Shown here in pieces: positions 106 to 42,547 of a stretch of DNA of 64,000 nucleotides. The notes beneath the pieces were generated by a model. The model saw nothing but the letters and a program-made list of their open reading frames with translations, ran no database searches and was not told the DNA's origin. Where the stretch lies: the NCBI GenBank assembly GCA_027449885.1, contig DAIDKS010000024.1:1-64000 (forward strand), written 5' to 3'. The position numbers and the translations under genes were made by a program. The stretch's first letter is position 1. Every line of letters begins with the position of its first letter. Source of the stretch: Acidimicrobiaceae bacterium (GTDB taxonomy: Bacteria; Actinomycetota; Acidimicrobiia; Acidimicrobiales; RAAP-2).

Positions 106-798
106 TCAGGGCTTGCTCGGATAGGCCCGAGGGCCGAAGAGCCGTCGACCGAGCCGGATCTCGGTGGTTCCCCACGCCGCCGCCAGCTCGAAGTCCTCGC
201 TCATCCCCATCGACCTCTCGACCAGGGACAACGAGTCGGCGAGCCGCGTGAGCGTCCGGAAGGCCTCGCGCGCGCCGTCGGCGTCCGGCGGCGCCACCGT
301 CATCAGCCCCTCGACGTCGAGCCCCTGATCGCGCGCTCGCGACACCAGCTCGGGAACCTCGTCGGCGCCCGCCCCGGGACGCTGCGCTCGCCCCGTCGTG
401 TCGAGCTCGACGTAGATGGCCGCCCCGGGGCGACGCGCGGCGATGCGATCGATCTCGCTCGCCCGCGCCACGCCGCAGAGCAGGTCCGCCGCGGCGAGGG
501 CCCGGGCGATCTTGTTGGACTGCAGGGCCCCGAGGAAGTGCCAGCGCACCGCCACGTCACGCGTGGCGGCCCGCTTCTCCTCGAGCTCGGCGACGTAGTT
601 CTCGCCCACCGCCGTGATGCCGGCCCGGGCCGCCGCCCGCACCGCCTCGGGTCCGAACGTCTTGGTCACCGCGACCACCCGTACGCGCTCGGGGTCGGCC
701 CCGGCGCGCGCCAGTCGTTCGGTGACGTCGCCGAGAGCGGCCCGCACGCGGGCCGTCAGCTCGTCCTCAGTGCTGGAGGAAGGTGGGGAGGTCGTCAT
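106..798 (-). CDS. yggS: PLP-binding homeostasis protein YggS/PLPBP
   Basis: A 230-residue protein of the YggS/PROSC family, a single-domain alanine-racemase-like barrel that carries pyridoxal phosphate and buffers its pool but has no known catalytic turnover. The PLP lysine sits in VAVTKTF near residue 46. The family motifs [16 protein letters not shown], the SMGMS-D stretch and the C-terminal [13 protein letters not shown] are all visible. The ATG at 798 lies inside the end of ftsZ (32-base overlap), so translation may be coupled. A GTG at 747 is possible but would shorten the usual N-terminal helix. yggS between ftsZ and sepF is a common arrangement in Gram-positive division clusters. Confidence 0.93.
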
Positions 799-1858
799 CT
801 CCGCCGATGTCGAAGAAGTCCTCGTCGGCGCTGGCGAAGATGTCCGTGCGCGGCCCCTCGGTCATGACGGGCTGACTCGTCGTCGTGGACGGACGGGGCG
901 CGGCCGGGGTCAACTGGTCGAAACCGGCCGCGATCACGGTGACGCGGACGGCGTCGCCGATCGAGTCGTCGATGACGCTGCCGAAGATGATGTTCGCGTC
1001 GGGGTGGGCCACCGAGTGAACGATGTTGGCGGCGTCGGTCACCTCGCTGAGCGTGATGCTGGACCCGCCGACGATGTTCATGAGGATGCCCCGGGCCCCG
1101 TCGATCTGGGCCTCGAGCAGCGGCGAGGTGATGGCCGCACGGGCCGCGTTGACCGCCCGCCCCTCGCCGGTCGACTGCCCCACGCCCATGATGGCCGTTC
1201 CGGCGTTGCGCATGATGGCGTTGACGTCGGCGAAGTCGGTGTTGATCAGTCCGGGCACCGTGATGAGATCCGTCACACCCCGCACCGCCGACAGCAGGAC
1301 GTCGTCGGCGATCTTGAAGGCGTCGATCATCGAGGTCTCCGCCGCCGTGACCGAGAGCAGTCGGTCGTTCGGGATGACGATCAGCGTGTCCACCTTCGCC
1401 CGCAGGGCCTCGATCCCCTTCTCGGCCTGCGTGGCGCGACGCTTTCCCTCGAAGGAGAAGGGCCGCGTGACGACGCCGATCGTGAGGATGCCGAGGCTGC
1501 GCGCGATATCGGCCACCACCGGGGCCGCACCGGTCCCGGTGCCGCCGCCCTCACCCGCCGTGATGAACACCATGTCGGTGTCGCGCAGCGCGTCCTCGAT
1601 CTCCGCGCGGTGCTCCTCGGCGGCCTGCCGGCCGACCTCCGGATCCGATCCCGCCCCGAGACCACGGGTGAGCTGACGGCCGATGTCGATCTTGAGATCG
1701 GCCTCACTGAGCAGAAGGGCCTGCGCGTCCGTGTTGGCCGCGATGAACTCGATGTTGCGCAGCCCGGCTGCGATCATCCGGTTCACCGCGTTGACGCCAC
1801 CACCACCAACGCCGACCACCTTGATCACGGCGTGGTAGTTGCTCTGGCTCAGACTCAT
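767..1858 (-). CDS. ftsZ: Cell division GTPase FtsZ
   Basis: Tubulin-like GTPase that polymerises into the division ring. This 363-residue protein has the N-terminal [14 protein letters not shown] nucleotide motif, the tubulin signature [11 protein letters not shown] near residues 104-114, and the T7 catalytic loop NTDFADV near 207. A short variable linker (about residues 315-345) leads to a conserved-looking tail, [12 protein letters not shown], the docking site for FtsZ partners such as SepF. The linker is short for an actinobacterium. An AAGGGGG ribosome binding site precedes the ATG, and a separate promoter lies in the 110-base gap after ftsQ. Identification is secure. Confidence 0.99.
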
Positions 1859-1968: not shown

Positions 1969-2853
1969 TCACGACGGAGCCGGACCGGTCACGGCCAGCG
2001 ATCCGGGAACGGTCACGTCGACGACGTCACCCGGCCGCAGGGTCGCGTGGGCGATCACCGAGGCGATCGAGGTGAACTTGTCACCCAGCTGGACGGGCAG
2101 GCCGATCACGAAGCGCACCGGCGTCGTCATCTGTAGCGTCACCCAGCCCGACGCCGCGACGTCGACGCTGGACACCTGCGCCGAGAAGGCCCGCGGGAGC
2201 CGGGCGGCGACCGTCGCCGCGTTGCGCCCGGCGCGAGCGAAGGGCCACGTGGGCGACAGCGGGTGCTCGTAGACGAGGGTGGGGTAGTTCGCGCCGAGAG
2301 GCGCGACCGAGAGCTCCCGACCGTCCGCGCCGACGTAGTGGAGCACGTGATGGGCGTCGAAGGCGACGGCCACGGGTCGCTGCTCGCTCACCCGGATCGC
2401 CACGGTGTCGGGCCAGTGCACCGCGACGTGCGCCGACGAGATCCACGGGAAGTGGCGCACGATCCGCCGGGCGACGGTGCTCGCGCGCACGTCGATCAGG
2501 GGCGGGTGACTCCCGAGCCCCGAGGCGGCGACGACGGCGGCCGCGCTCTCGTGCTGCGCCCCCGTCACCGTGACGTGGCGCACGGAGAAGAACGACCGGT
2601 GGATCACCCAGTTCCCTGCGACGACGAGGGTGACGAGGAGGAGGAGCGCCGCGAGGACGGCGCTGAGGACCCGGCGGCGGCGTGAGGGGATACGCCGGGG
2701 GCGGCGCGATCGGGGTGCCGGCGCCGACGCGGCCCCCCGCGTCGCCGACCGCGTCGGCTCACTCGAGCGCCCCGCGCGGGACCGCGTCGCGGGGCGTCCC
2801 GCGCGGGGCCGCGCGGACGACGTCCGGTCGCGTGAGGGGCGGCGCCGGCTCAC
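1969..2853 (-). CDS. ftsQ: Cell division protein FtsQ/DivIB
   Basis: A 294-residue bitopic divisome protein. It has a very basic, Arg/Pro/Ser-rich cytoplasmic tail (about residues 1-61), one membrane segment (about 62-84, LSAVLAALLLLVTLVVAG), an extracytoplasmic POTRA domain beginning SVRHVTVTGAQH, then a beta domain with VRVSEQRPVAV-like sequence. FtsQ scaffolds FtsL and FtsB/DivIC at the septum. I place the start at the GTG at 2853, which overlaps the murB stop in a GTGA. The open frame runs further upstream, but that part is inside murB. The unusually long basic tail is typical of high-GC Actinobacteria. Confidence 0.92.
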   Translation of the reverse strand: MSRRRPSRDRTSSARPRAGRPATRSRAGRSSEPTRSATRGAASAPAPRSRRPRRIPSRRRRVLSAVLAALLLLVTLVVAGNWVIHRSFFSVRHVTVTGAQHESAAAVVAASGLGSHPPLIDVRASTVARRIVRHFPWISSAHVAVHWPDTVAIRVSEQRPVAVAFDAHHVLHYVGADGRELSVAPLGANYPTLVYEHPLSPTWPFARAGRNAATVAARLPRAFSAQVSSVDVAASGWVTLQMTTPVRFVIGLPVQLGDKFTSIASVIAHATLRPGDVVDVTVPGSLAVTGPAPS

Positions 2854-3749
2854 GGTGCCTCGGCGAAGCCTACGAACCGGTTCTCCGTGACGAGTCGCAC
2901 CCCACTCGTCGACTGCACCGCTTCGCGGACGGCCCGGATCAGTTCGACGAGGTCGCTCGCGGTTCCTCCCGGCTCGACCTGGATGAAGTTGGCGTGCTTC
3001 TCGCTCACCACCGCACCGCCTCGCCGCCACCCCTTGCATCCGGCGGCCTCGATCAGGCGTCCGGCGCTGTCGCCCGGGGGATTCCGAAAGACCGAGCCGG
3101 CGTTGGCCCCGCCGGGCTGGTGCTCACGGCGCCAGGTCACGATCTCGCGTAGCCGCTCGCGACTCGCGTCCGGGTCGCCCTCGGCGAGGGTGAGTCGTGC
3201 GCCCAGCACCATGTCGCCGGCCGAGATGGCGCTGGTGCGGTATCCGGGGCTCCAGCGCTCCGGCGTCCACCACTCGACGGCGCCCGCGCGCCAGACTTCG
3301 ACCGCACTCACGCACGCCCCCATGTCCGAACCGTGACCCCCCGCGTTCATCGCGACGGCGCCTCCCACGGTCCCGGGGACGCCCACGGCCCACTCGAATC
3401 CCGTGAGGCCCCGAGCGCTCAGCTGTCGCGCGGCGACGGGCAGCGCCATGGCCGCGCCGACCACCGCCTCCTCGCCCCGCACCTCGAGCCTGTCGAAGTC
3501 GCCGGTCAGCCGGACGGCGACGAGGTCGAGGGCGCCGTCGGCGATGACCAGATTCGAGCCGTTGCCGACGACGAACCACGGAACCTCCAGGTCGACGAGG
3601 GCCGGACCGATCTCGTCCAGGTCGGCTCGCGAGGCGAGGACCACGAGGGCCCGCGCCTCTCCCCCGACGCGGTAGGTGGTGTACGGAGCGAGGGACTCGC
3701 CCTCGCGCACCCGGTCCCCGCCACGACGACGCAGCTCGGTCCAGGTCAC
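2850..3749 (-). CDS. murB: UDP-N-acetylenolpyruvoylglucosamine reductase
   Basis: FAD-dependent enzyme that uses NADPH to reduce UDP-GlcNAc-enolpyruvate to UDP-MurNAc, the second committed step of peptidoglycan precursor synthesis. At 299 residues it has the FAD-binding motifs VGNGSNLVI (about 61-69) and GVPGTVGGAVAMNAGGHG (about 123-140), the catalytic-serine segment NAGSVFRNP, and KHANFI near residue 251 with a late glutamate in TENRFVG. The compact form without the extra C-terminal loop indicates a type II enzyme. It overlaps murC by ATGA and ftsQ by GTGA. Confidence 0.98.
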   Translation of the reverse strand: MTWTELRRRGGDRVREGESLAPYTTYRVGGEARALVVLASRADLDEIGPALVDLEVPWFVVGNGSNLVIADGALDLVAVRLTGDFDRLEVRGEEAVVGAAMALPVAARQLSARGLTGFEWAVGVPGTVGGAVAMNAGGHGSDMGACVSAVEVWRAGAVEWWTPERWSPGYRTSAISAGDMVLGARLTLAEGDPDASRERLREIVTWRREHQPGGANAGSVFRNPPGDSAGRLIEAAGCKGWRRGGAVVSEKHANFIQVEPGGTASDLVELIRAVREAVQSTSGVRLVTENRFVGFAEAP

Positions 3750-5107
3750 GGCTCGAGTCCCTCGAGCCCGTCGACGACGCGGGCGGCGATGTCGCCCGCG
3801 CCGAGCAGGAGGACCGCATCGGCCGGTCGCCCGGCGACGCTCTCCTCCAACACGGTGATCACCTCGCTCGGGGTCGCCGCGTAGTGCACGCCGGCCCGCC
3901 CCCCCGCCACGACGTCCGACACGACCCGTCCCGTGACCCCCTCGGGATTGGGCTCGCCCGCCGCGTACAGGTCGGTGATGATGACCTCGTCAGCGTCGTC
4001 GAAGGCTCCCGCGAACTGAGCGGCCAGAGCCACGGTCCGACTGACGCGATGGGGCTGGAACACGGCGACCACCCGGTCGTAGCCCGCGGCCCGCGTCGCC
4101 TGAACCGTGGCCCGGATCTCCCCGGGCAGGTGGGCGTAGTCCTCGATCACGACCGCACCGTGCCAGTGTCCGCGCCGATCGAAGCGCCGCGGAGCTCCGT
4201 GGAAGCTCGCGAGACCTCGCTCCACCGCCGACCGTTCGATCCCGAGGTCGAGACAGAGGGTCGCCACCACCGCCGCGTCGATCGCGTTGTGTCGACCCGG
4301 CACGGCGAGGTCGAGGGCTACCTCCCCCGCCTCCGGATGCGTCAGCCGGGCCCGCGTTCCCGTCGCGTCCACGCGCACCTCGCCTAGTCGGACGTCGGCC
4401 GTTGCCCCCACCGTGCGCACGTCGCGGCCCACGCGACGGGCCACCGCGGCCGCCCCGGGGTCGTCGATCCAGACCGCGACCGGCCCCGTGGTCCGCTCGA
4501 CCAGGTCGACGAAGGCGTCGTGCAGGGCCTCGACCGACCCGTAGTGGTCGAGGTGGTCGGCCTCCACGTTGAGGAGCCCGAGGGCAGCCGGCGCCAGTCG
4601 CGCGAAGGTGCCGTAGCTCTCGTCGACCTCGAGCAGCAGGTCGGGCCCACCCCAGTGCCCGTTCGCCCCGACGCCCCGTACCGGCGCGCCGAGGAGCCGC
4701 GAGTCGTCACGCCCCGCCGCCGACATCACCCACACGAGCATCGAGGTCGCGGTCGTCTTGCCGTGCGTACCCGTGATCCCGACGACGGGCTGCAGCCGGC
4801 CGAGTTCGGCCAACAGGTCCGCCCGGGGCAGCAGCGTCGCTCCCCGGACCCGCGCCGCGGCGAGCTCGGGGTGGTCCGCCGCGACCGCTGGCGACCACAG
4901 CACGACCTCCGCGTCCGCGCCGTGGGTCGCGTCAGCGCCCACGTCGACCCTCACGCCGTGGGCCACCAGTTCGTCGAGCACCGGCCCGGCCTGAGCATCA
5001 CTGCCGCTCACCCGGCATCCCCGTTCGCTGAGGAGTCGCGCGACGCCGCTCATGCCCGCCCCGCCCACTCCGACGATGTGGACCCGTCGACCCACCTCGA
5101 AGGTCAT
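3746..5107 (-). CDS. murC: UDP-N-acetylmuramate--L-alanine ligase
   Basis: ATP-dependent Mur ligase adding L-Ala to UDP-MurNAc. The 453-residue protein shows the N-terminal UDP-binding HIVGVGGAGMSG, the P-loop GITGTHGKTTATSM (about 109-122), the central NVEADHLDHYG, and the C-terminal domain with FQPHRVSRT. In MurC the hinge motif is normally DYAHHP; here it is DYAHLP (H to L), a point worth checking. Four-base ATGA overlaps join it to murG upstream and murB downstream. In this cluster only murC and murE represent the four amino-acid-adding Mur ligases. Confidence 0.97.
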   Translation of the reverse strand: MTFEVGRRVHIVGVGGAGMSGVARLLSERGCRVSGSDAQAGPVLDELVAHGVRVDVGADATHGADAEVVLWSPAVAADHPELAAARVRGATLLPRADLLAELGRLQPVVGITGTHGKTTATSMLVWVMSAAGRDDSRLLGAPVRGVGANGHWGGPDLLLEVDESYGTFARLAPAALGLLNVEADHLDHYGSVEALHDAFVDLVERTTGPVAVWIDDPGAAAVARRVGRDVRTVGATADVRLGEVRVDATGTRARLTHPEAGEVALDLAVPGRHNAIDAAVVATLCLDLGIERSAVERGLASFHGAPRRFDRRGHWHGAVVIEDYAHLPGEIRATVQATRAAGYDRVVAVFQPHRVSRTVALAAQFAGAFDDADEVIITDLYAAGEPNPEGVTGRVVSDVVAGGRAGVHYAATPSEVITVLEESVAGRPADAVLLLGAGDIAARVVDGLEGLEP

Positions 5108-6222
5108 CGTCCCTCCGCCGCGTCACGCACCACCGCCGCGATCGCGGCGGCGCCGTCCGTGCGACCGAGGGCCGCACTCGCGCGGGACCGCGCATCCAGC
5201 GCCGCGGGCTCCAGCAGGTCGTCGAGGGCCGTCCCGAGGCGAGCCGCGTCGCACTCGGCGTCGGACACCATGATCGCGGCGCCCGCCGATACCAGGGCCC
5301 GTGCGTTCGCCGTCTGATGATCCCCGGGGGCCCCGGGCAGCGGCACGAGGACCGCCGGGATCCCGAGGGCCGTGAGCTCCGCCGTGGTCATGGCCCCGGC
5401 GCGGCAGACCGCCACGTCGGCCACCGCCCAGAGTGGCGGCATGTCGACGAAGTCGAAGATGCGGTAGTCGAGACCGGTGGTCGCCGGTCGAGCGGCGCGG
5501 ACCCGCTCGGCGTCGCGTCGGCCCGTCACGTGCAGGAGCACGACGTCCTCGCGGTCGGACCAGCGAGCCGCCAGTTCGGAGATCGCGTCGTTGACCCGCC
5601 GTGAGCCCAGCGAGCCGGTCATGACGACGACCACGGAGCGAGTCGGCTCGAGCGGCGGGTCGACGGCCTCCCGGGCCGTCCGGCGGGCCGCCGCGGAGCG
5701 GTCGAGCGACGCGATGGCCTCGCTCACCGGCGTCCCCGTCACGACGTCGCGACCCGCGGACACGCCGGTGGCGAGGCACCGGCGCCGAGCGAAGCGCGCG
5801 AGCAGGCGATGGGTCGCGCCCGGCTGGGCGTCGAGCTCGACGAGTACCAGGGGTCGCCGCCACAGAGCGGCGGCGAGACCCATCGCCACCGACGCGTACC
5901 CGCCCACGGAGACGACCACCGCGGGTCGCCAACGGGCGACGAGGACGCCGGCCCGTACGATCGCGGTCACCAGTCCCGCCACGGCCCCCGCGTTGCGCGC
6001 GAGCGCCCCCGGTCGCAGGGACCGCTCGAGCCCGCGCCCCGGGAGCAGGGTGAGGGGGTAGCCCGTGTCCGCGAGGAGGCGGCGCTCCTGGCCCCGTCGA
6101 CTGCCCACCAGATGGATGTCCGCCGGGGGAACGCCCTCGCGAGCCAGGGCGTCGGCGATGGCCCTCATCGGGAAGATATGTCCACCCGTGCCGCCGCCCG
6201 TGATGACGACGGGCCCCCTCAT
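5104..6222 (-). CDS. murG: Lipid II synthase MurG
   Basis: GT-B glycosyltransferase that adds GlcNAc from UDP-GlcNAc to lipid I at the inner membrane face, making lipid II. The 372-residue protein starts MRGPVVITGGGTGGHIFP with the glycine-rich lipid-I loop. The N-domain has VVVSVGGYASVAMGLAA. The C-domain donor site is recognisable as CRAGAMTTAELTALGIPAV followed by DHQTANARAL. ATGA overlaps connect it to ftsW and murC. Confident by motif and by position. Confidence 0.97.
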   Translation of the reverse strand: MRGPVVITGGGTGGHIFPMRAIADALAREGVPPADIHLVGSRRGQERRLLADTGYPLTLLPGRGLERSLRPGALARNAGAVAGLVTAIVRAGVLVARWRPAVVVSVGGYASVAMGLAAALWRRPLVLVELDAQPGATHRLLARFARRRCLATGVSAGRDVVTGTPVSEAIASLDRSAAARRTAREAVDPPLEPTRSVVVVMTGSLGSRRVNDAISELAARWSDREDVVLLHVTGRRDAERVRAARPATTGLDYRIFDFVDMPPLWAVADVAVCRAGAMTTAELTALGIPAVLVPLPGAPGDHQTANARALVSAGAAIMVSDAECDAARLGTALDDLLEPAALDARSRASAALGRTDGAAAIAAVVRDAAEGR

Positions 6223-7478
6223 CTCACGAACCGGGAACGACTCCGGGGGCCGTAGCCCGTGGCGCGCGACGCCGGCGACGCGACTCTCACGCCGTCACGA
6301 TAGGCCGGAGCCGCGGGGCGACGAACGGCGCCGGGGACGGTCCGGCGAATGGCGAGGTCGGGGCCGGACGACCGATCGTGACCGATCCCGTAGAGCAGTC
6401 CCACGGCGAAGAGCTGCGAGATGAGGGCCGTCCCCCCGTAGGAGAAGAACGGCAGGGGGATCCCGGTCACGGCCCAGCCCCCGACCACGGAGGCGACGTT
6501 GATCACGGCCTCGAGAACGATCCACGTCGTGATGCCGACGGCGATCAACCGGTTCGTCCCGTGCCGACTCTCCTGGACGACGCGGGTGGCGCTCCAGAGG
6601 AACCACGCGAAGAGCCCGAGGACGGCCAGCGTGCCGATGAGGCCGAGCTCCTCGCCGATGATGGTGAAGATGAAATCGGTGTGGGGATTCGGCAACAGCC
6701 CCCACTTCTCCCGCGAGTGACCCAGACCGAGGCCCGTGAGGCCACCCGCCCCCAGGCCGATCTTGGACTGCAGGAGCTGGTAACCAGCTCCCTGCAGGTT
6801 CTGATTGGGATGGAGGAACGAGAAGAAGCGCTGTGCGGTGTAGGGCTTGAGCGCCATCATCGCTCCGAATCCGAGCAGCGACAGGCCGATGGTCCGTCCG
6901 AGGAGCACGCGCGGCAGATCGGCGACCGCCAGCATCGCCAGGGCGATGGCGAAGACGACCGACGACGTCCCGAGGTCCGGCTCGATGACGATGAGGCCGA
7001 TGCCGGCGATCACCGGGAGCATCCACCGAACGAGTCCCGAGCCACTGCCGAGCTCGTCACGGTGGCGCGCGACGGCCCAGGCCACGAAGACGATCGTGGA
7101 GAGCTTGAACAGCTCCGAGGGCTGCAGGAAGATCACGTGCAGGTTGAGCCAGCGCTTGCCCCCGTTGGCGGAGACACCCCCGACCTTGACGGCGACCAGC
7201 AGCAGCAGACCCGCGCCCATGAGCAGCGGAGCCCGCGACACGAGGGCCCCGACGCGCAACCGTCCACCGAGGTACAGCGCGACGAGGCCGAAGCCCAAGT
7301 ACACGAGATCGTGGATCGTGATGCTCCAGGGCGATCCGCCGTTGGCCACCGACTGCCCCTCGCTCGCGGACGCGACCATCACCGTGCCGTAGGTGACCAT
7401 GACGAGCGTCGCGATGAGCACCGAGCGCGCCGCGTGATCGCCGCGGGGCCAGGGGTGGAAGAGCCGCTCCCCCGACAT
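6219..7478 (-). CDS. ftsW: SEDS peptidoglycan glycosyltransferase FtsW
   Basis: Multi-span SEDS protein of 419 residues that polymerises lipid II at the septum with its partner transpeptidase (here FtsI). Signature segments are visible: GGKRWLNL, LQPSELFKLSTIVFVA, IEPDLGTSSVVFAIALAM, the TDFIFTIIGEELGLIG loop and PFFSYGGTALISQL near the C-terminus. About ten membrane segments are predicted, followed by a basic 45-residue cytoplasmic tail. The ATG at 7478 overlaps the mraY stop. In most clusters murD lies between mraY and ftsW; here there is no room for it. Confidence 0.97.
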   Translation of the reverse strand: MSGERLFHPWPRGDHAARSVLIATLVMVTYGTVMVASASEGQSVANGGSPWSITIHDLVYLGFGLVALYLGGRLRVGALVSRAPLLMGAGLLLLVAVKVGGVSANGGKRWLNLHVIFLQPSELFKLSTIVFVAWAVARHRDELGSGSGLVRWMLPVIAGIGLIVIEPDLGTSSVVFAIALAMLAVADLPRVLLGRTIGLSLLGFGAMMALKPYTAQRFFSFLHPNQNLQGAGYQLLQSKIGLGAGGLTGLGLGHSREKWGLLPNPHTDFIFTIIGEELGLIGTLAVLGLFAWFLWSATRVVQESRHGTNRLIAVGITTWIVLEAVINVASVVGGWAVTGIPLPFFSYGGTALISQLFAVGLLYGIGHDRSSGPDLAIRRTVPGAVRRPAAPAYRDGVRVASPASRATGYGPRSRSRFVR

Positions 7479-8512
7479 CACACGACCTTCGCGATCTTGA
7501 GGAAGTCTCCGTAGAAGATCCCGAGGGCCAGCGCCGCGAAGAGCCCCGCGAGGATCCAGAAGCGGATGATCACGGTGGTCTCGGGCCACCCCTTCAGCTC
7601 GAAGTGGTGGTGGAAGGGCGCCATCCGGAAGATGCGCCGCCCGAACAGCCGGAAGCTCACGACCTGCAGGATCACCGACGCCGTCTCGGCGACGAAGAGC
7701 CCGCCCAGGATGACGAGGAGGAGGTCCAGGTTCATCAGCAGCGCGATCGCGCCGAGCGCGGTGCCGATGGCCAGGGATCCGGTGTCGCCCATGATGATGC
7801 GGGCGGGAGCGGCGTTCCACCATAGGAAGCCGAGGGACGAGCCGAGGAGCCCGACCGCCAGGAGCCCCAGGTCGAGGGCGGCGTGCACGTGGTAGATGGA
7901 GAAGTGACGGAACTCCCAGTACCCGATGATCGACAGCACGCTGAACGCGAAGGTCGCCGAGCCCGCCGCCAGTCCGTCGAGGCCGTCGGTGAGGTTGACC
8001 GCGTTCGAGGTGGCGATCACCACGACGACGGCCAGCAGCAGCCAGCCCACGGCCGTGAGGTTCCAGCCCGGCAGTGAGAATCGGGTGAACGAGAGGTTGG
8101 TCGACGTCCGGACCCACCACACGGCTGCGGCGGCGAAGCCCCCGGCGATCACCAGTTGGCCGGCGAGCTTGCCCCGCTTGTTGAGTCCGAGGTTGCGAGC
8201 GTTGCGGATCGCGAGGTAGTCGTCGACGAACCCGAGCAGCCCGCTCGCCACCGTCACGAGGCACGCGAGGACGCCCGACCGGGTGAAGTCGATCGACGTC
8301 CCGACGTGACCCATCAGGTATCCGGTCGCCCCGGCCCCCACGATGATCACGCCGCCCATGGTCGGCGTCCCCGCCTTCGCGAGGTGCGTCGCGGGTGCGT
8401 CGGCTCGAATGTGCTGACCGAGGGAGCGGCGGGCCACGAAACGGATCCACAGTGGCATGACGACGAGCGACAGCAGGAAGGCGACCCCGCCCGACTCCAT
8501 GAGGCTCAGCAT
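7478..8512 (-). CDS. mraY: Phospho-N-acetylmuramoyl-pentapeptide transferase
   Basis: Integral membrane enzyme transferring phospho-MurNAc-pentapeptide to undecaprenyl phosphate to give lipid I. The 344-residue protein has all MraY landmarks: THLAKAGTPTMGG, the catalytic FVDDYLAIRN with GLNKRGKLAGQ, NAVNLTDGLDGLA, MGDTGSLAIG, and the FHHHFELKGW histidine loop. About ten membrane spans fit. I chose the ATG at 8512 (7-base overlap with murE); a second ATG lies at 8500. It follows murE directly with no murF between them, which is unusual. Confidence 0.97.
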   Translation of the reverse strand: MLSLMESGGVAFLLSLVVMPLWIRFVARRSLGQHIRADAPATHLAKAGTPTMGGVIIVGAGATGYLMGHVGTSIDFTRSGVLACLVTVASGLLGFVDDYLAIRNARNLGLNKRGKLAGQLVIAGGFAAAAVWWVRTSTNLSFTRFSLPGWNLTAVGWLLLAVVVVIATSNAVNLTDGLDGLAAGSATFAFSVLSIIGYWEFRHFSIYHVHAALDLGLLAVGLLGSSLGFLWWNAAPARIIMGDTGSLAIGTALGAIALLMNLDLLLVILGGLFVAETASVILQVVSFRLFGRRIFRMAPFHHHFELKGWPETTVIIRFWILAGLFAALALGIFYGDFLKIAKVV

Positions 8513-9909
8513 CGCCCGCTCCACTCCCGCACGACGACCCGGTCGTCGAACGGCTCGACCCGGTCCCCCGTCGTCTGGGTGGTCTCGTGACCCTTGCCCG
8601 CGATGACCACCACGTCGCCCGGGGCTGCCGTCGTGAGCGCCCACTCGATCGCGGTGCGGCGGTCGACGTCACGGTGCACTGCGTGGGCCGCCGCCATTCC
8701 CGACATGATCGCGTCAATAATGGCATCGGGCGACTCGGACCTCGGATTATCCGAGGTCACGACGACTCGATCGGACCACTCCTCGGCCACCGAGCCCATG
8801 ACGGGGCGCTTGGCCTGATCGCGGTCGCCCCCGCACCCGAAGACGACGGTGACCCGGCGATCGGGCGCGAGTTCGCGGACGTCGCGCAGGAGCCGCTCCA
8901 GACCCGCCGGGGTGTGCGCGTAGTCGACGATGACCGTCGGATCGGCGTCGCGCACGACTTGGAATCGCCCCGGGACGCCGTGAACGTCGCCGAGCGCCGC
9001 CGCCACCTCCTCGTCCGGCGCGCCGAGAACCGAGAGGACGGTCATCGCCACCAGGGCGTTGTCGACGTTGTAGGCCCCCACGAGTGGCGACCGCACGAGG
9101 TGACCGCGCCAGAAGAACGACGTTCCGAGGATGGACGACGTCACGGCGTGGGCGTCCGCCCGCGTGACCGGCACGGCGGGCACGCGAACGGCGTCGCGTA
9201 GTCGCGCACCGTAGGCGTCGTCGACCCAGATGACGGCGCGCTTCGTCCGGTCGGCGGAGAACAGCGCCGACTTCGCACCGAAGTAGGCCTCCATCGTCCC
9301 GTGGTAGTCGAGGTGATCGTGGCTGAGGTTGGTGAAGGCGGCCACCTCGAACACCAGCCCGTCGACCCGCCCCTGATCGAGAGCGTGACTCGAGACCTCC
9401 AGTCCCACGACGGCCCTCGGTTTGGCCTCGGTGAACCCGTCGACGATGCGTCGGAGCGTGCGGTAGAGCTCGGGGGGCGCCGGGGTGGTGCGCAGGTTCG
9501 TCAGGGTCCCGACGCTCGCTCCGTTCCAGCCGAGGATCTGAGCCATCTCCCCCACGAGCGTCGTCACCGTCGTCTTGCCGTTGGTCCCGGTGACTCCCAC
9601 GAGCTCGAGTTCGCGCTCCGGATGTCCCACGATGCTCGACGACACGTCCGCGGCGAGTGCTCGAACCTGACTCGTCGGCACGACGACGACGGGCACTCGA
9701 TCGGTCACCACCGACGTCGCCATCACGGCGACGGCCCCGCGCTCGATCGCGTCGTCGACGTAGCGCTCGCCATTGTCCTGCGTGCCCGGCATCGCGAGGA
9801 AGAGAGACCCGGGAGTGCAGCGCCGCGAGTCGTTCTCGACGCTGTGGATCTCGACGGTGGCCGTCGCCAAGTCGAGCCGCGCGTCGTCGAAGAGGTCGCC
9901 GAGCTGCAT
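8506..9909 (-). CDS. murE: UDP-MurNAc-tripeptide synthetase (meso-diaminopimelate-adding)
   Basis: Mur ligase adding the third stem-peptide residue. At 467 residues it has the P-loop GVTGTNGKTTVTT (about 105-117), the EVSSHAL and NLSHDHLDYHG motifs, the carbamylated-lysine region FGAKSALF, and VIVDYAHTP. The C-domain carries SDNPRSE. The DNPR motif is the known marker of meso-diaminopimelate specificity, as opposed to lysine. Start and stop overlap neighbours: TGATG with ftsI and 7 bases with mraY. Confidence 0.97.
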   Translation of the reverse strand: MQLGDLFDDARLDLATATVEIHSVENDSRRCTPGSLFLAMPGTQDNGERYVDDAIERGAVAVMATSVVTDRVPVVVVPTSQVRALAADVSSSIVGHPERELELVGVTGTNGKTTVTTLVGEMAQILGWNGASVGTLTNLRTTPAPPELYRTLRRIVDGFTEAKPRAVVGLEVSSHALDQGRVDGLVFEVAAFTNLSHDHLDYHGTMEAYFGAKSALFSADRTKRAVIWVDDAYGARLRDAVRVPAVPVTRADAHAVTSSILGTSFFWRGHLVRSPLVGAYNVDNALVAMTVLSVLGAPDEEVAAALGDVHGVPGRFQVVRDADPTVIVDYAHTPAGLERLLRDVRELAPDRRVTVVFGCGGDRDQAKRPVMGSVAEEWSDRVVVTSDNPRSESPDAIIDAIMSGMAAAHAVHRDVDRRTAIEWALTTAAPGDVVVIAGKGHETTQTTGDRVEPFDDRVVVREWSGRC

Positions 9910-11732
9910 CAGGTCACGTCCGAGGCCACGCTGGCGCTACCGGTCAGCGGCTTGACGGTGATTCCGGTGGACGGGATCCCGTAGTGGTGCAGGGCGTAGG
10001 ACATCACTTGCTGGAAGACCGGAGCGGCGGCCGTACCACCGTAGATCGTCGTGAGAGGACGCTCAACGACCACGATCATGGAGAACGTCGGACGCTCGGC
10101 GGGCGCGAAACCCACGAAGGTCGCGTTATACCAGGACGTCAGCTGCGCTCGGCCCGGGTACGGGATCGTCGCCGTACCGGTCTTGCCCGCGACGGGATAG
10201 CCCGGGATGATCGCGTTGACGCCCGTCCCCGCGAGCACGACCTGCTGGAGCATCGAGGTAAGCGTCGCGGCGGTCGTCGCGCTCATCACTCGACGGGTCG
10301 CACCGGCGGGGGCTGCGGTCACGGCTCCCGTGGAGCTCACGTAGCCGCGCACCAGCTGGGGCTCCACGAAGACGCCTCCGTTGGCGATGGCGTTGTAGGC
10401 GTCGAGCACCTGGATGGGTGGAACGGCGTCAACCTGTCCGATGGGCATGGCGGCCATGTCGGACGGGTACCAACTGTTCGCGTTGACGAGCAGTCCCGCC
10501 GTCTCACCGGGATACTGCAGGGTCGTCAGCTGTCCGAATCCGAGGCGCTCGACCTGGCTCAAGAGTCCCGACTCGCCGAGGCGGTTCGTGATCTCGTAGG
10601 TTCCGATGTTCGACGACAGAGCGAGGACCTGGGTGGCCGTCAGGTGCTCGAAGCCGTGGGGCTCCGCGTCGTGGAAGACGCGCGTTCCGACGACGACGCT
10701 CGGCGGGACGTTGAGCACCGTGTGCGGCGTGATGATCCCGTCCTGGAGCGCCGCGGAGAACGTCACGGCCTTGAAGACCGACCCGGGCTCGTAGGCGTAG
10801 CTGAACGCGAGGTCGTTGATCGTCTGCTGGATGCCGGGAACGCCGACGTTGACGCCCCACGACGGGATGGGTCCGAGAATGCCGGCCTTCGCCTTGGTGT
10901 TGACGAGTGAGGCGTTCGCGAGGATCTGGCCGGTGTGGACGTCCATGACGATGGCCGTGCCCGCCACCGCGTCGGTTGACGCCAGGTCACGGGCGAGAGC
11001 GCGCTCGGTGACGAACTGGAGCGAGTTGTCGATGGTCAGCTCGAGCCCGACGCCCGGCGTCGCCTTGCGGATGACCGTGCTGTAGGAGGCGGGGAGGTTG
11101 ACCCCACTCGCCGAGACGAAGGCTCGCGTGACCCCGGACTGACCGGCCAGCAGCTTCTGGTACTGGTACTCGAGCCCGGCCGAGCCCGTGCCCGACGAGT
11201 TGACCCCTCCCACGAGGGACGTCGCGACGGGGCCGTTCGGGTAGTCACGTACCGAGGAGTTCTGGACCACGATGCCGGGGAAGTTCATCGCGGTGATCGT
11301 CCGACCGGTCGTGACGTCCAACGTGTTCGTGAGAATCACGTAGCCGTTGCGCTGGCTGAGCAGCGTCGTGAGCTTCGCCACGGGAACCTTGACCAGCGGC
11401 GAGAGAGCGGCGGCCTCGGTCGCCGGATGGGCGATCTGGAAGTCATCGGCGATGACGACGGCGGTGGGGCGCGACACGGCGATGATCTGACCGTTGCGGT
11501 CGTAGATGCCGGCGCGCAGCGCCTGGGTCGTCAGGTCCACGCGGACCTGTGCGACCGAGAGCTTGGCGTAGTAGGCGTGATCCAGTACCTGCAGCGCCAC
11601 GAGCCGCAGGCTGAGGAGCAGTAGCGCTACGGCGAAGAGTCCACGCAGGAGACGGAGTCGCCGGGGCAGAGCCCGTCGCGGTCGCTCGGGTCGGCGGACC
11701 GTTCGGGTGGGTGGCGCCAGGGTGGGGCTCAC
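9909..11732 (-). CDS. ftsI: Division-specific penicillin-binding protein (class B, FtsI/PBP3)
   Basis: Septal transpeptidase of 607 residues. It has a basic N-terminus, one membrane anchor (about residues 29-50), a pedestal domain beginning QALRAGIYDRNGQIIA, and a transpeptidase domain. Catalytic motifs are all present: SVFK with S318 and K321, SSN at 373-375, and KTGTA starting at K517. The GTG start overlaps the ftsL-like stop in a GTGA. It ends in a short Ser/Thr/Val tail with no PASTA repeats. It should pair with FtsW in the divisome. Confidence 0.96.
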   Translation of the reverse strand: MSPTLAPPTRTVRRPERPRRALPRRLRLLRGLFAVALLLLSLRLVALQVLDHAYYAKLSVAQVRVDLTTQALRAGIYDRNGQIIAVSRPTAVVIADDFQIAHPATEAAALSPLVKVPVAKLTTLLSQRNGYVILTNTLDVTTGRTITAMNFPGIVVQNSSVRDYPNGPVATSLVGGVNSSGTGSAGLEYQYQKLLAGQSGVTRAFVSASGVNLPASYSTVIRKATPGVGLELTIDNSLQFVTERALARDLASTDAVAGTAIVMDVHTGQILANASLVNTKAKAGILGPIPSWGVNVGVPGIQQTINDLAFSYAYEPGSVFKAVTFSAALQDGIITPHTVLNVPPSVVVGTRVFHDAEPHGFEHLTATQVLALSSNIGTYEITNRLGESGLLSQVERLGFGQLTTLQYPGETAGLLVNANSWYPSDMAAMPIGQVDAVPPIQVLDAYNAIANGGVFVEPQLVRGYVSSTGAVTAAPAGATRRVMSATTAATLTSMLQQVVLAGTGVNAIIPGYPVAGKTGTATIPYPGRAQLTSWYNATFVGFAPAERPTFSMIVVVERPLTTIYGGTAAAPVFQQVMSYALHHYGIPSTGITVKPLTGSASVASDVT

Positions 11733-42187: not shown

Positions 42188-42533
42188 GGGGGTGAGTGGT
42201 TTCGACATCAGTTGTCTAGGTGGAAGCAGCGAGCCGTGGTCTCCGGAGCCACGTAAAAGAGCCGGAAAACAACAAAAAACGGCAAAGCACAGCTTAGCCT
42301 TGCTGCTTAGGTAGCAACGTCCGACCGGACTCATCCCTACGGTTCGGAATTCGGGCGTCAGAAAGTAGGGATTACTCAATGGAGCGGTCAGTGATCCAGC
42401 GAGGACAATTCAGCTGACTACGGCTGGTACACGGTGCCCGTGACAGGACCAGCCCGACAATTCCCCATGGGCTGCGCTCGGAGAATGTCTACTGCGGCCC
42501 TGATGGACCTGGGTTCGACTCCCAGCACCTCCA
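42188..42533 (+). ncRNA. ssrA: Transfer-messenger RNA (tmRNA)
   Basis: Trans-translation RNA of about 346 nt. The 5' end, GGGGGTGAGTGGTTTCGACA, pairs through GGGGGTG with CACCTCC at the 3' end, and the T arm is CTGGG TTCGACT CCCAG. The discriminator A is at 42533; CCA is not encoded. The tag frame runs 42260-42310 and would add SRKTTKNGKAQLSLAA (resume codon AGC, or possibly the preceding AAG), ending TAG with a second TAG four bases on. The Leu-Ala-Ala end fits ClpXP recognition. It lies directly after smpB. Confidence 0.95.
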
Positions 42534-42547
42534 CAAGATCGGCCGTG

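Follow-up and report, generated by a model that had tools for sequence, protein, structure and literature searches.

An alternative D-glutamate (D-Glu) route, the MurD2-MurL pathway, is known from XOO_1320/XOO_1319 of Xanthomonas oryzae and from Micromonospora and Salinispora (PMC8788868, PMC5808125). In the passages of PMC8788868 that deal with these enzymes, MurL is a peptide epimerase that uses ATP, produces AMP, operates in the L-to-D direction only and lacks known domains, and an in vitro confirmed member belongs to Micromonospora. The same passages report E197, R358, P433 and F435 as the differing residues of X. oryzae MurD2, the mutations E197D and R358K shifting its specificity and the double mutant being specific for D-Glu. 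In the Escherichia coli division and cell wall (dcw) cluster that served as our control, the relevant genes read murE-murF-mraY-murD-ftsW. Here we describe a dcw cluster lacking both murF and murD, located in a 64,000-nucleotide stretch (hereafter the window) of contig DAIDKS010000024.1 from the Acidimicrobiaceae bacterium assembly GCA_027449885.1. We consider it highly probable that two independent changes emptied this cluster, with murD having been replaced by a pgeF-murL-murD2 locus and murF having separately moved beside ddl, where it has a membrane-type form.

The cluster occupies the minus strand and reads mraZ, mraW, an ftsL-like open reading frame (ORF), ftsI, murE, mraY, ftsW, murG, murC, murB, an ftsQ-like ORF, ftsZ and yggS, with murE, mraY, ftsW, ftsZ and yggS matched by hidden Markov model (HMM) profiles and the other genes named from their translations. 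Its order is like that of the canonical E. coli cluster except that the murF and murD slots are vacant, and the initial annotation was correct in describing the remainder as textbook. The same annotation held that no room is left for either gene, which is confirmed by the overlap of murE (end at 8506) and mraY (ATG at 8512) in the 7 bases ATGCTGA, and by the abutment of mraY and ftsW. The ATGA that it placed at the latter junction is not found there: the mraY stop codon TGA (7480-7478) is joined to an ftsW start at either ATG 7478 (TGATG, a 1-base overlap) or GTG 7481 (GTGA, a 4-base overlap). Whole-genome HMM searches for MurF and MurD yielded only murE and murC in the window, which agrees with the earlier statement that neither gene lies elsewhere within it. 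Outside the cluster, Rfam places a tmRNA gene at 42188-42536 of the window (138 bits).

The source genome (G000; 1.98 Mb, 49 contigs, 84% complete) was compared with 31 relatives, with 247 genomes sampled across the class, and with a same-genus set of 19 genomes that includes the source genome itself; genus, order and class are the kinship labels supplied with the genome set. The murE-mraY junction is present in 18 of the 19 same-genus genomes, as is the mraY-ftsW junction, and both exceptions (G013 and G007, respectively) coincide with a contig edge. The spacing between the mraY and ftsW matches is 2-113 nt across the genus, and in the closest named metagenome-assembled genome (MAG; L156, genome G031) the junction spacing is identical to that of the window. 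Because these junctions recur across the genus, sequence loss in a single assembly is excluded as their cause, and the absence of murD and murF from the cluster is biologically real. In one same-genus genome with 4% contamination (G012), an additional mraY fragment is preceded by a partial Mur-ligase match (C74:220-1689), representing either contamination or a second cluster.

The only MurD of the source genome above the TIGR01087 cut-off (249 bits; cut-off 212) is encoded on another contig, C15, by the gene directly following a murL homologue, and its probable GTG start lies within the last 26 bases of murL. The MurL homologue matches profile NF041275 (E = 3e-87, 293 bits) over profile positions 10-436 of 447, and directly before it on C15 (L018:7314-9463) lies pgeF, the gene of the peptidoglycan editing factor (TIGR00726, 144 bits; cut-off 141). 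A MurD homologue is present in 77 of 80 named MurL loci. In 26 of these 80 a pgeF match adjoins murL, and in 24 it directly precedes murL in the same orientation. Among the named MurL records, the closest ones are MAGs with the labels Actinomycetes, Acidimicrobiaceae or Acidimicrobiales. The window contains no pgeF match. In actinobacteria, pgeF is frequently situated between ftsZ and yggS.

To place the G000 MurD among its homologues, we aligned 101 sequences, comprising 92 MurL-linked MurDs and nine dcw MurDs of the same order. Omitted from the residue counts are the three named loci without a MurD, four in which it is too short, and the MurD of G007, which was split by the search. In a tree of 63 of these rows (the full 28 from relatives, plus 35 of the 73 named), 54 MurL-linked rows are separated from the nine dcw MurDs by a branch with 100/100 support. 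A 32-row tree that includes E. coli MurD, uses MurE and MurF sequences as outgroups and omits the deep row L192 recovers a canonical clade of E. coli MurD and eight dcw MurDs of the order (97/96) and a MurL-linked clade (97/95). When L192 and L214 are included in a 33-row repeat, the canonical clade is retained at 95/90 and support for the MurL-linked clade falls to 49/67; the argument therefore rests on the canonical clade. The G000 MurD lies outside that clade in both trees and thus, as far as trees can tell, appears not to belong to the lineage shared by E. coli MurD and the dcw MurDs of its order, nor to be a moved dcw gene. The position equivalent to R358 of X. oryzae MurD2 is arginine in 91 of the 92 MurL-linked MurDs and lysine in all nine dcw MurDs, and that equivalent to P433 is proline in 87 of 92 versus none of the nine. 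The G000 MurD2 has R, P and F at the R358, P433 and F435 positions.

The locus resembles the described MurD2-MurL pathway in the adjacency of murL and a MurD-like gene, in the arginine and proline of its MurD2, and in the failure to detect a MurI in the source genome (no match at E = 0.1). It differs in that pgeF precedes murL, in the D rather than E at the MurD2 position corresponding to E197, and in its Acidimicrobiales-type host, which is outside the genus list in the parts of PMC8788868 that give one. MurI is likewise undetected in all 19 same-genus genomes. Among the 31 relatives, 20 carry MurL and nine carry MurI (eight over the cut-off), none carries both, and two, which are 75% and 70% complete, carry neither. 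In the class-wide sample, MurL occurs in 30 genomes and MurI in 170 (149 over the cut-off); the two coincide only in G171, a same-genus genome whose MurI match is weak (E = 4.4e-7), and the remaining 13 of the 14 same-genus genomes in that sample have no MurI. This mutual avoidance has a Fisher p of 6e-16 for genomes that are not independent of one another. More telling is the alternation within six families (f7, f19, f21, f23, f24 and f27), in each of which MurL carriers without MurI are found beside another sampled member with MurI, an arrangement that makes the exchange of an essential enzyme directly testable. A D-amino-acid transaminase was considered as a source of D-Glu and rejected: none of the 31 genomes has a match over the TIGR01121 cut-off, and the match in the source genome is IlvE according to NCBIfam. 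In the same-genus genome G018 (75% complete), neither MurL nor MurI was found.

The association between MurL and the loss of murD from the cluster extends to more distant bacteria. The neighbourhood of mraY was surveyed in 20 named MurL carriers chosen among the 80 named loci, and in 15 of them, as in the source genome, ftsW comes next after mraY without an intervening MurD match, the gaps between matches (up to ~690 nt) being too short for murD. By comparison, the six proteobacterial carriers among the 20, like the three from Micromonosporaceae, all keep murF before mraY. Loss of murD from the cluster thus tends to accompany MurL; loss of murF does not, since these carriers keep it. In genomes, the alternative D-Glu route would be recognisable by a dcw cluster that lacks murD together with a murL located elsewhere. 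Among the same carriers, those from Micromonospora, Actinoplanes, Longispora and Nocardioides (L243, L251-L253 and L257-L260) each have two mraY copies over the cut-off, the second having no recognised dcw neighbours.

A structural model of MurL built from 53 sequences (pLDDT 96.5, pTM 0.95; predicted local distance difference test and template-modelling scores) has as its best Protein Data Bank (PDB) match the protein QatC (9y02_B; VIA-align Z 19.1, 3.6 A over 312 aligned residues), followed by QueC (3bl5_E; Z 13.7, 3.4 A, 191 residues), with the next PP-loop and other structures at Z 9.3 or less. Foldseek alone gave a modest result for the model (QatC, E = 2e-4, template-modelling score 0.40), the MurL sequence profile retrieved nothing from the PDB up to E = 0.1, and no Pfam family was found in MurL. 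The GGGxDS loop (G139-G141, D143 and S144) and the cysteines C305, C321, C324 and C327 are invariant in the 53 rows. MurL thus models as a QueC/QatC-like PP-loop ATPase, which it would resemble in its predicted fold and in a PP-loop with GG-x-DS, the difference lying in substrate and reaction, as the published MurL is a peptide epimerase. By extension from fold to chemistry, MurL would adenylate the alpha-carboxylate before epimerisation, and such PP-loop adenylation fits because AMP is the reported product. The confident model therefore offers a concrete candidate mechanism for an epimerase published as lacking known domains (PMC8788868, in the passages cited above). Two QueC papers (PMC13329287, PMC13279940) make no mention of MurL or peptidoglycan in their main text.

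The best MurF match in the source genome lies on contig C33 (TIGR01143, E = 1e-56, 193 bits, below the cut-off of 289) and begins only at profile position 65. In each of the 18 same-genus genomes with a murF match, a ddl match in the same orientation follows after 29-42 nt; the remaining genome (G015) has no murF match. Three order relatives (G021, G025 and G027) share this murF-ddl arrangement, and the murF of a fourth (G026) lies at a contig edge. Five others (G020, G023, G024, G029 and G030) have an ordinary MurF adjoining a divergently read ddl, and no murF match was obtained in G019 or G028. The order murE-mraY-murD, with murF gone and murD in place, is present in seven of the ten MurL-lacking genomes of the order, not both junctions being readable in the other three, and in G022 the reverse is seen, murF having been kept in the cluster and murD being gone. 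The two losses are therefore separable, and their distributions differ.

The genus MurF differs from ordinary MurFs. It shares the ATP-binding middle and C-terminal domains of MurF, as indicated by the TIGR01143 match and by structural comparison: the model (19 sequences, pLDDT 86.4, pTM 0.77, with a low-confidence stretch at 43-52) has MurF 3zl8 as its best PDB match (Z 38.0, root-mean-square deviation 4.9, 360 residues aligned), although the aligned range starts at residue 102, so that part of the helical region is superposed on the first MurF domain. The first ~176 residues are modelled as helices, three stretches of which are hydrophobic enough for membrane spans. Judging from the HMM match, the secondary structure of the model and the alignment, the N-terminal UDP-binding domain is not recognised and appears to be missing. 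The protein has DDTFNANPAS where E. coli MurF has DDSYNANVGS, and where seven ordinary MurFs carry a K-G/A-S motif near the C-terminus, all six membrane-type MurFs compared have NDLPD or NDVPD. We also considered whether the N-terminal domain is encoded separately just upstream; the ORF at that place encodes an alpha/beta hydrolase and not the UDP-binding domain. No ordinary MurF turned up in the HMM search of the source genome, and a search of the genus with the membrane-type protein found none at E values of 6e-25 to 4e-44, the level at which it detects the ordinary MurFs of the order; weaker partial matches occur in G006 (C46) and G012 (C74). Queried against plasmids, the membrane-type MurF gave 97 records; coverage of the query stayed under 80% in every one, and the eight listed match its second part only. 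Two membrane-type murF-ddl pairs occur in a single genome in two cases, G012 (L115, L137) and G025 (L149, L138).

The pairing with ddl is the one observation that suggests ligation of D-Ala-D-Ala by the membrane-type MurF, and a MurF without the UDP-binding domain raises the question of whether its substrate is UDP-linked. The simple view is that a membrane-tethered MurF would still use the UDP-N-acetylmuramic acid (UDP-MurNAc)-tripeptide. Alternatively, it might act on the lipid-linked tripeptide, with D-Ala-D-Ala being added after MraY. We consider this second possibility unlikely; it is raised because the UDP-binding domain is not recognised, because no ordinary MurF was found, and because MurT, which acts on lipid II, is also encoded. 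Were it true, two of the four stem-peptide steps, taken together with MurD2-MurL, would differ in chemistry or compartment. The source genome encodes a MurT on contig C47 (L020:5783-7003, minus strand; PF08353) that has the Mur_ligase_M and MurT_C domains only, and the ORF after it reads like a GatD amidotransferase, suggesting that lipid II amidation is likely.

From the gene content, gene order, lineage and co-occurrence described above, we infer the following enzyme activities, stereochemistry and order of events. The dcw murD would have been lost after a separate pgeF-murL-murD2 locus took over its job. MurD2 would add L-glutamate (L-Glu) to the precursor and MurL would epimerise it, yielding D-Glu on the precursor, after which the MurE encoded in the window would continue as usual. 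Independently, murF would have left the cluster to reside beside ddl, the supplier of its substrate, and in the genus and in some order relatives membrane-type helices would stand in place of the UDP-binding domain. An essential and usually conserved pathway would thus be seen in rearranged form.

Several observations weigh against this explanation. The MurL score of 293 bits is far under the curated NF041275 cut-off of 700; two Micromonospora MurLs, at 404 and 414 bits, are also below it, and two Xanthomonadales MurLs score 751 and 789. With the source genome only 84% complete, MurI may be missing from the assembly. Neither MurL nor MurI was found in 48 of the 247 class genomes, including the same-genus G267 (96% complete), and therefore MurL cannot be deduced from the absence of MurI by itself. 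A murD-like gene is kept after mraY in three of the 20 named MurL carriers (Nocardioides, Kineosporia and HGW-Actinobacteria-2), and the mraY/ftsW slot cannot be read either way in two more (Solirubrobacter and Pontimonas). That all MurL-linked MurDs share one origin is likely rather than firmly supported. The F435 position is not discriminating, being F or Y in 90 of the 92 MurL-linked MurDs but also in seven of the nine dcw MurDs. At the E197 position, all 17 aligned MurD2 rows of the genus have D, the 92 MurL-linked rows comprising 50 D, 41 E and 1 C, with E in the Micromonospora and Rhodanobacter rows. Given this D and the published effect of E197D, the genus MurD2 may accept D-Glu, and the preference of the G000 MurD2 for L-Glu is only a prediction.

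Of the alternatives, the first holds that ordinary murD and murF genes were simply relocated together and that D-Glu is provided by an undetected MurI. The initial annotation favoured something close to this, proposing that exactly two ligases had been cleanly excised or relocated, and that a relocated murF-murD pair would point to one ancestral relocation. Its broader expectation that the genes lie elsewhere in the genome or have been replaced is borne out, since both ligases are indeed encoded outside the cluster, and the incompleteness of the assembly leaves space for a missed MurI. Nevertheless, the MurD gene adjoins murL on contig C15 and the MurF gene adjoins ddl on contig C33, the G000 MurD falls outside the dcw MurD clade, and MurI is undetected throughout the 19 same-genus genomes and, apart from the weak match in G171, throughout those of the class sample. 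The comparison with relatives that the annotation had suggested goes against a joint event as well, given the seven order genomes that lost murF alone and the one that lost murD alone. We thus regard joint relocation as quite improbable, and prefer two independent changes.

A second possibility is that MurL and MurD2 serve a side pathway while the essential route is carried out by another, unrecognised ligase. The three carriers with a murD-like gene still in the dcw cluster would be consistent with this, as would the two full mraY copies in four of the 20 carriers. However, the murL-adjacent MurD is the only one over the cut-off in the source genome, in which the other Mur-ligase matches are accounted for by murE, murC, a MurE paralogue, the membrane-type murF, FolC and MurT (murC and FolC being identified from translations), and the side-pathway explanation is accordingly very improbable. 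The paralogue, a second MurE-like ligase on contig C22 (L017:8667-10697, minus strand; TIGR01085, 417 bits), carries a fused glycosyltransferase domain of family 2 and has DSPG where the MurE of the window has DNPR.

It is also conceivable that MurD2 in this clade can use D-Glu as well as L-Glu, with MurL only as an accessory and D-Glu coming from elsewhere. The aspartate at the E197 position, a change that shifts the specificity of X. oryzae MurD2 in the reported mutants (PMC8788868, same passages), speaks for such dual specificity, as does the failure to find either MurL or MurI in G267. Against this, the searches for MurI and a D-amino-acid transaminase revealed no D-Glu source, and the R358 and P433 equivalents are MurD2-like; we hold this explanation to be highly improbable. 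Finally, an artefact of lost or collapsed sequence at both junctions, which the initial annotation had named as the finding that would overturn it and which a fragmented assembly of 49 contigs might invite, has practically no chance of being correct when the gene overlaps are clean and each junction recurs in 18 of 19 genomes.

The MurD2-MurL route is already known but rare; as far as our searches show, its occurrence in Acidimicrobiales-type bacteria is new, as is the membrane-type MurF. Among the titles and abstract openings of the literature searched, to which subscription papers are mostly external, none links loss of murD from the dcw cluster to MurL, places MurL in Acidimicrobiia or among PP-loop enzymes, or reports a membrane-type MurF. 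The matching passages of PMC8871954, which concerns dcw gene order, contain nothing bearing on the absence of murD or murF. The coordinates of the cluster genes are collected below.

Table 1. Genes of the dcw cluster in the window, with profile scores in bits.
Feature	Position	Strand	Remarks
ftsI/PBP gene	9909..11732	-	upstream of murE; read from translation
murE	8506..9909	-	TIGR01085, 448 bits (cut-off 257); 3' end shares 7 bases with mraY; not followed by murF
mraY	7478..8512	-	TIGR00445, 303 bits (cut-off 192); directly after murE; no murD after
ftsW	6219..7478	-	ATG 7478 and GTG 7481 possible as starts; best match TIGR02614, 314 bits, below curated cut-off of 337.5
murG	5104..6222	-	read from translation; next gene after ftsW
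murC	3746..5107	-	read from translation; in place; weak MurD/MurF match in HMM searches
murB	2850..3749	-	read from translation; in place
ftsZ	767..1858	-	TIGR00065, 415 bits; yggS directly after, no pgeF between
yggS-type gene	106..798	-	TIGR00044, 93 bits, missing the cut-off of 106; overlaps end of ftsZ

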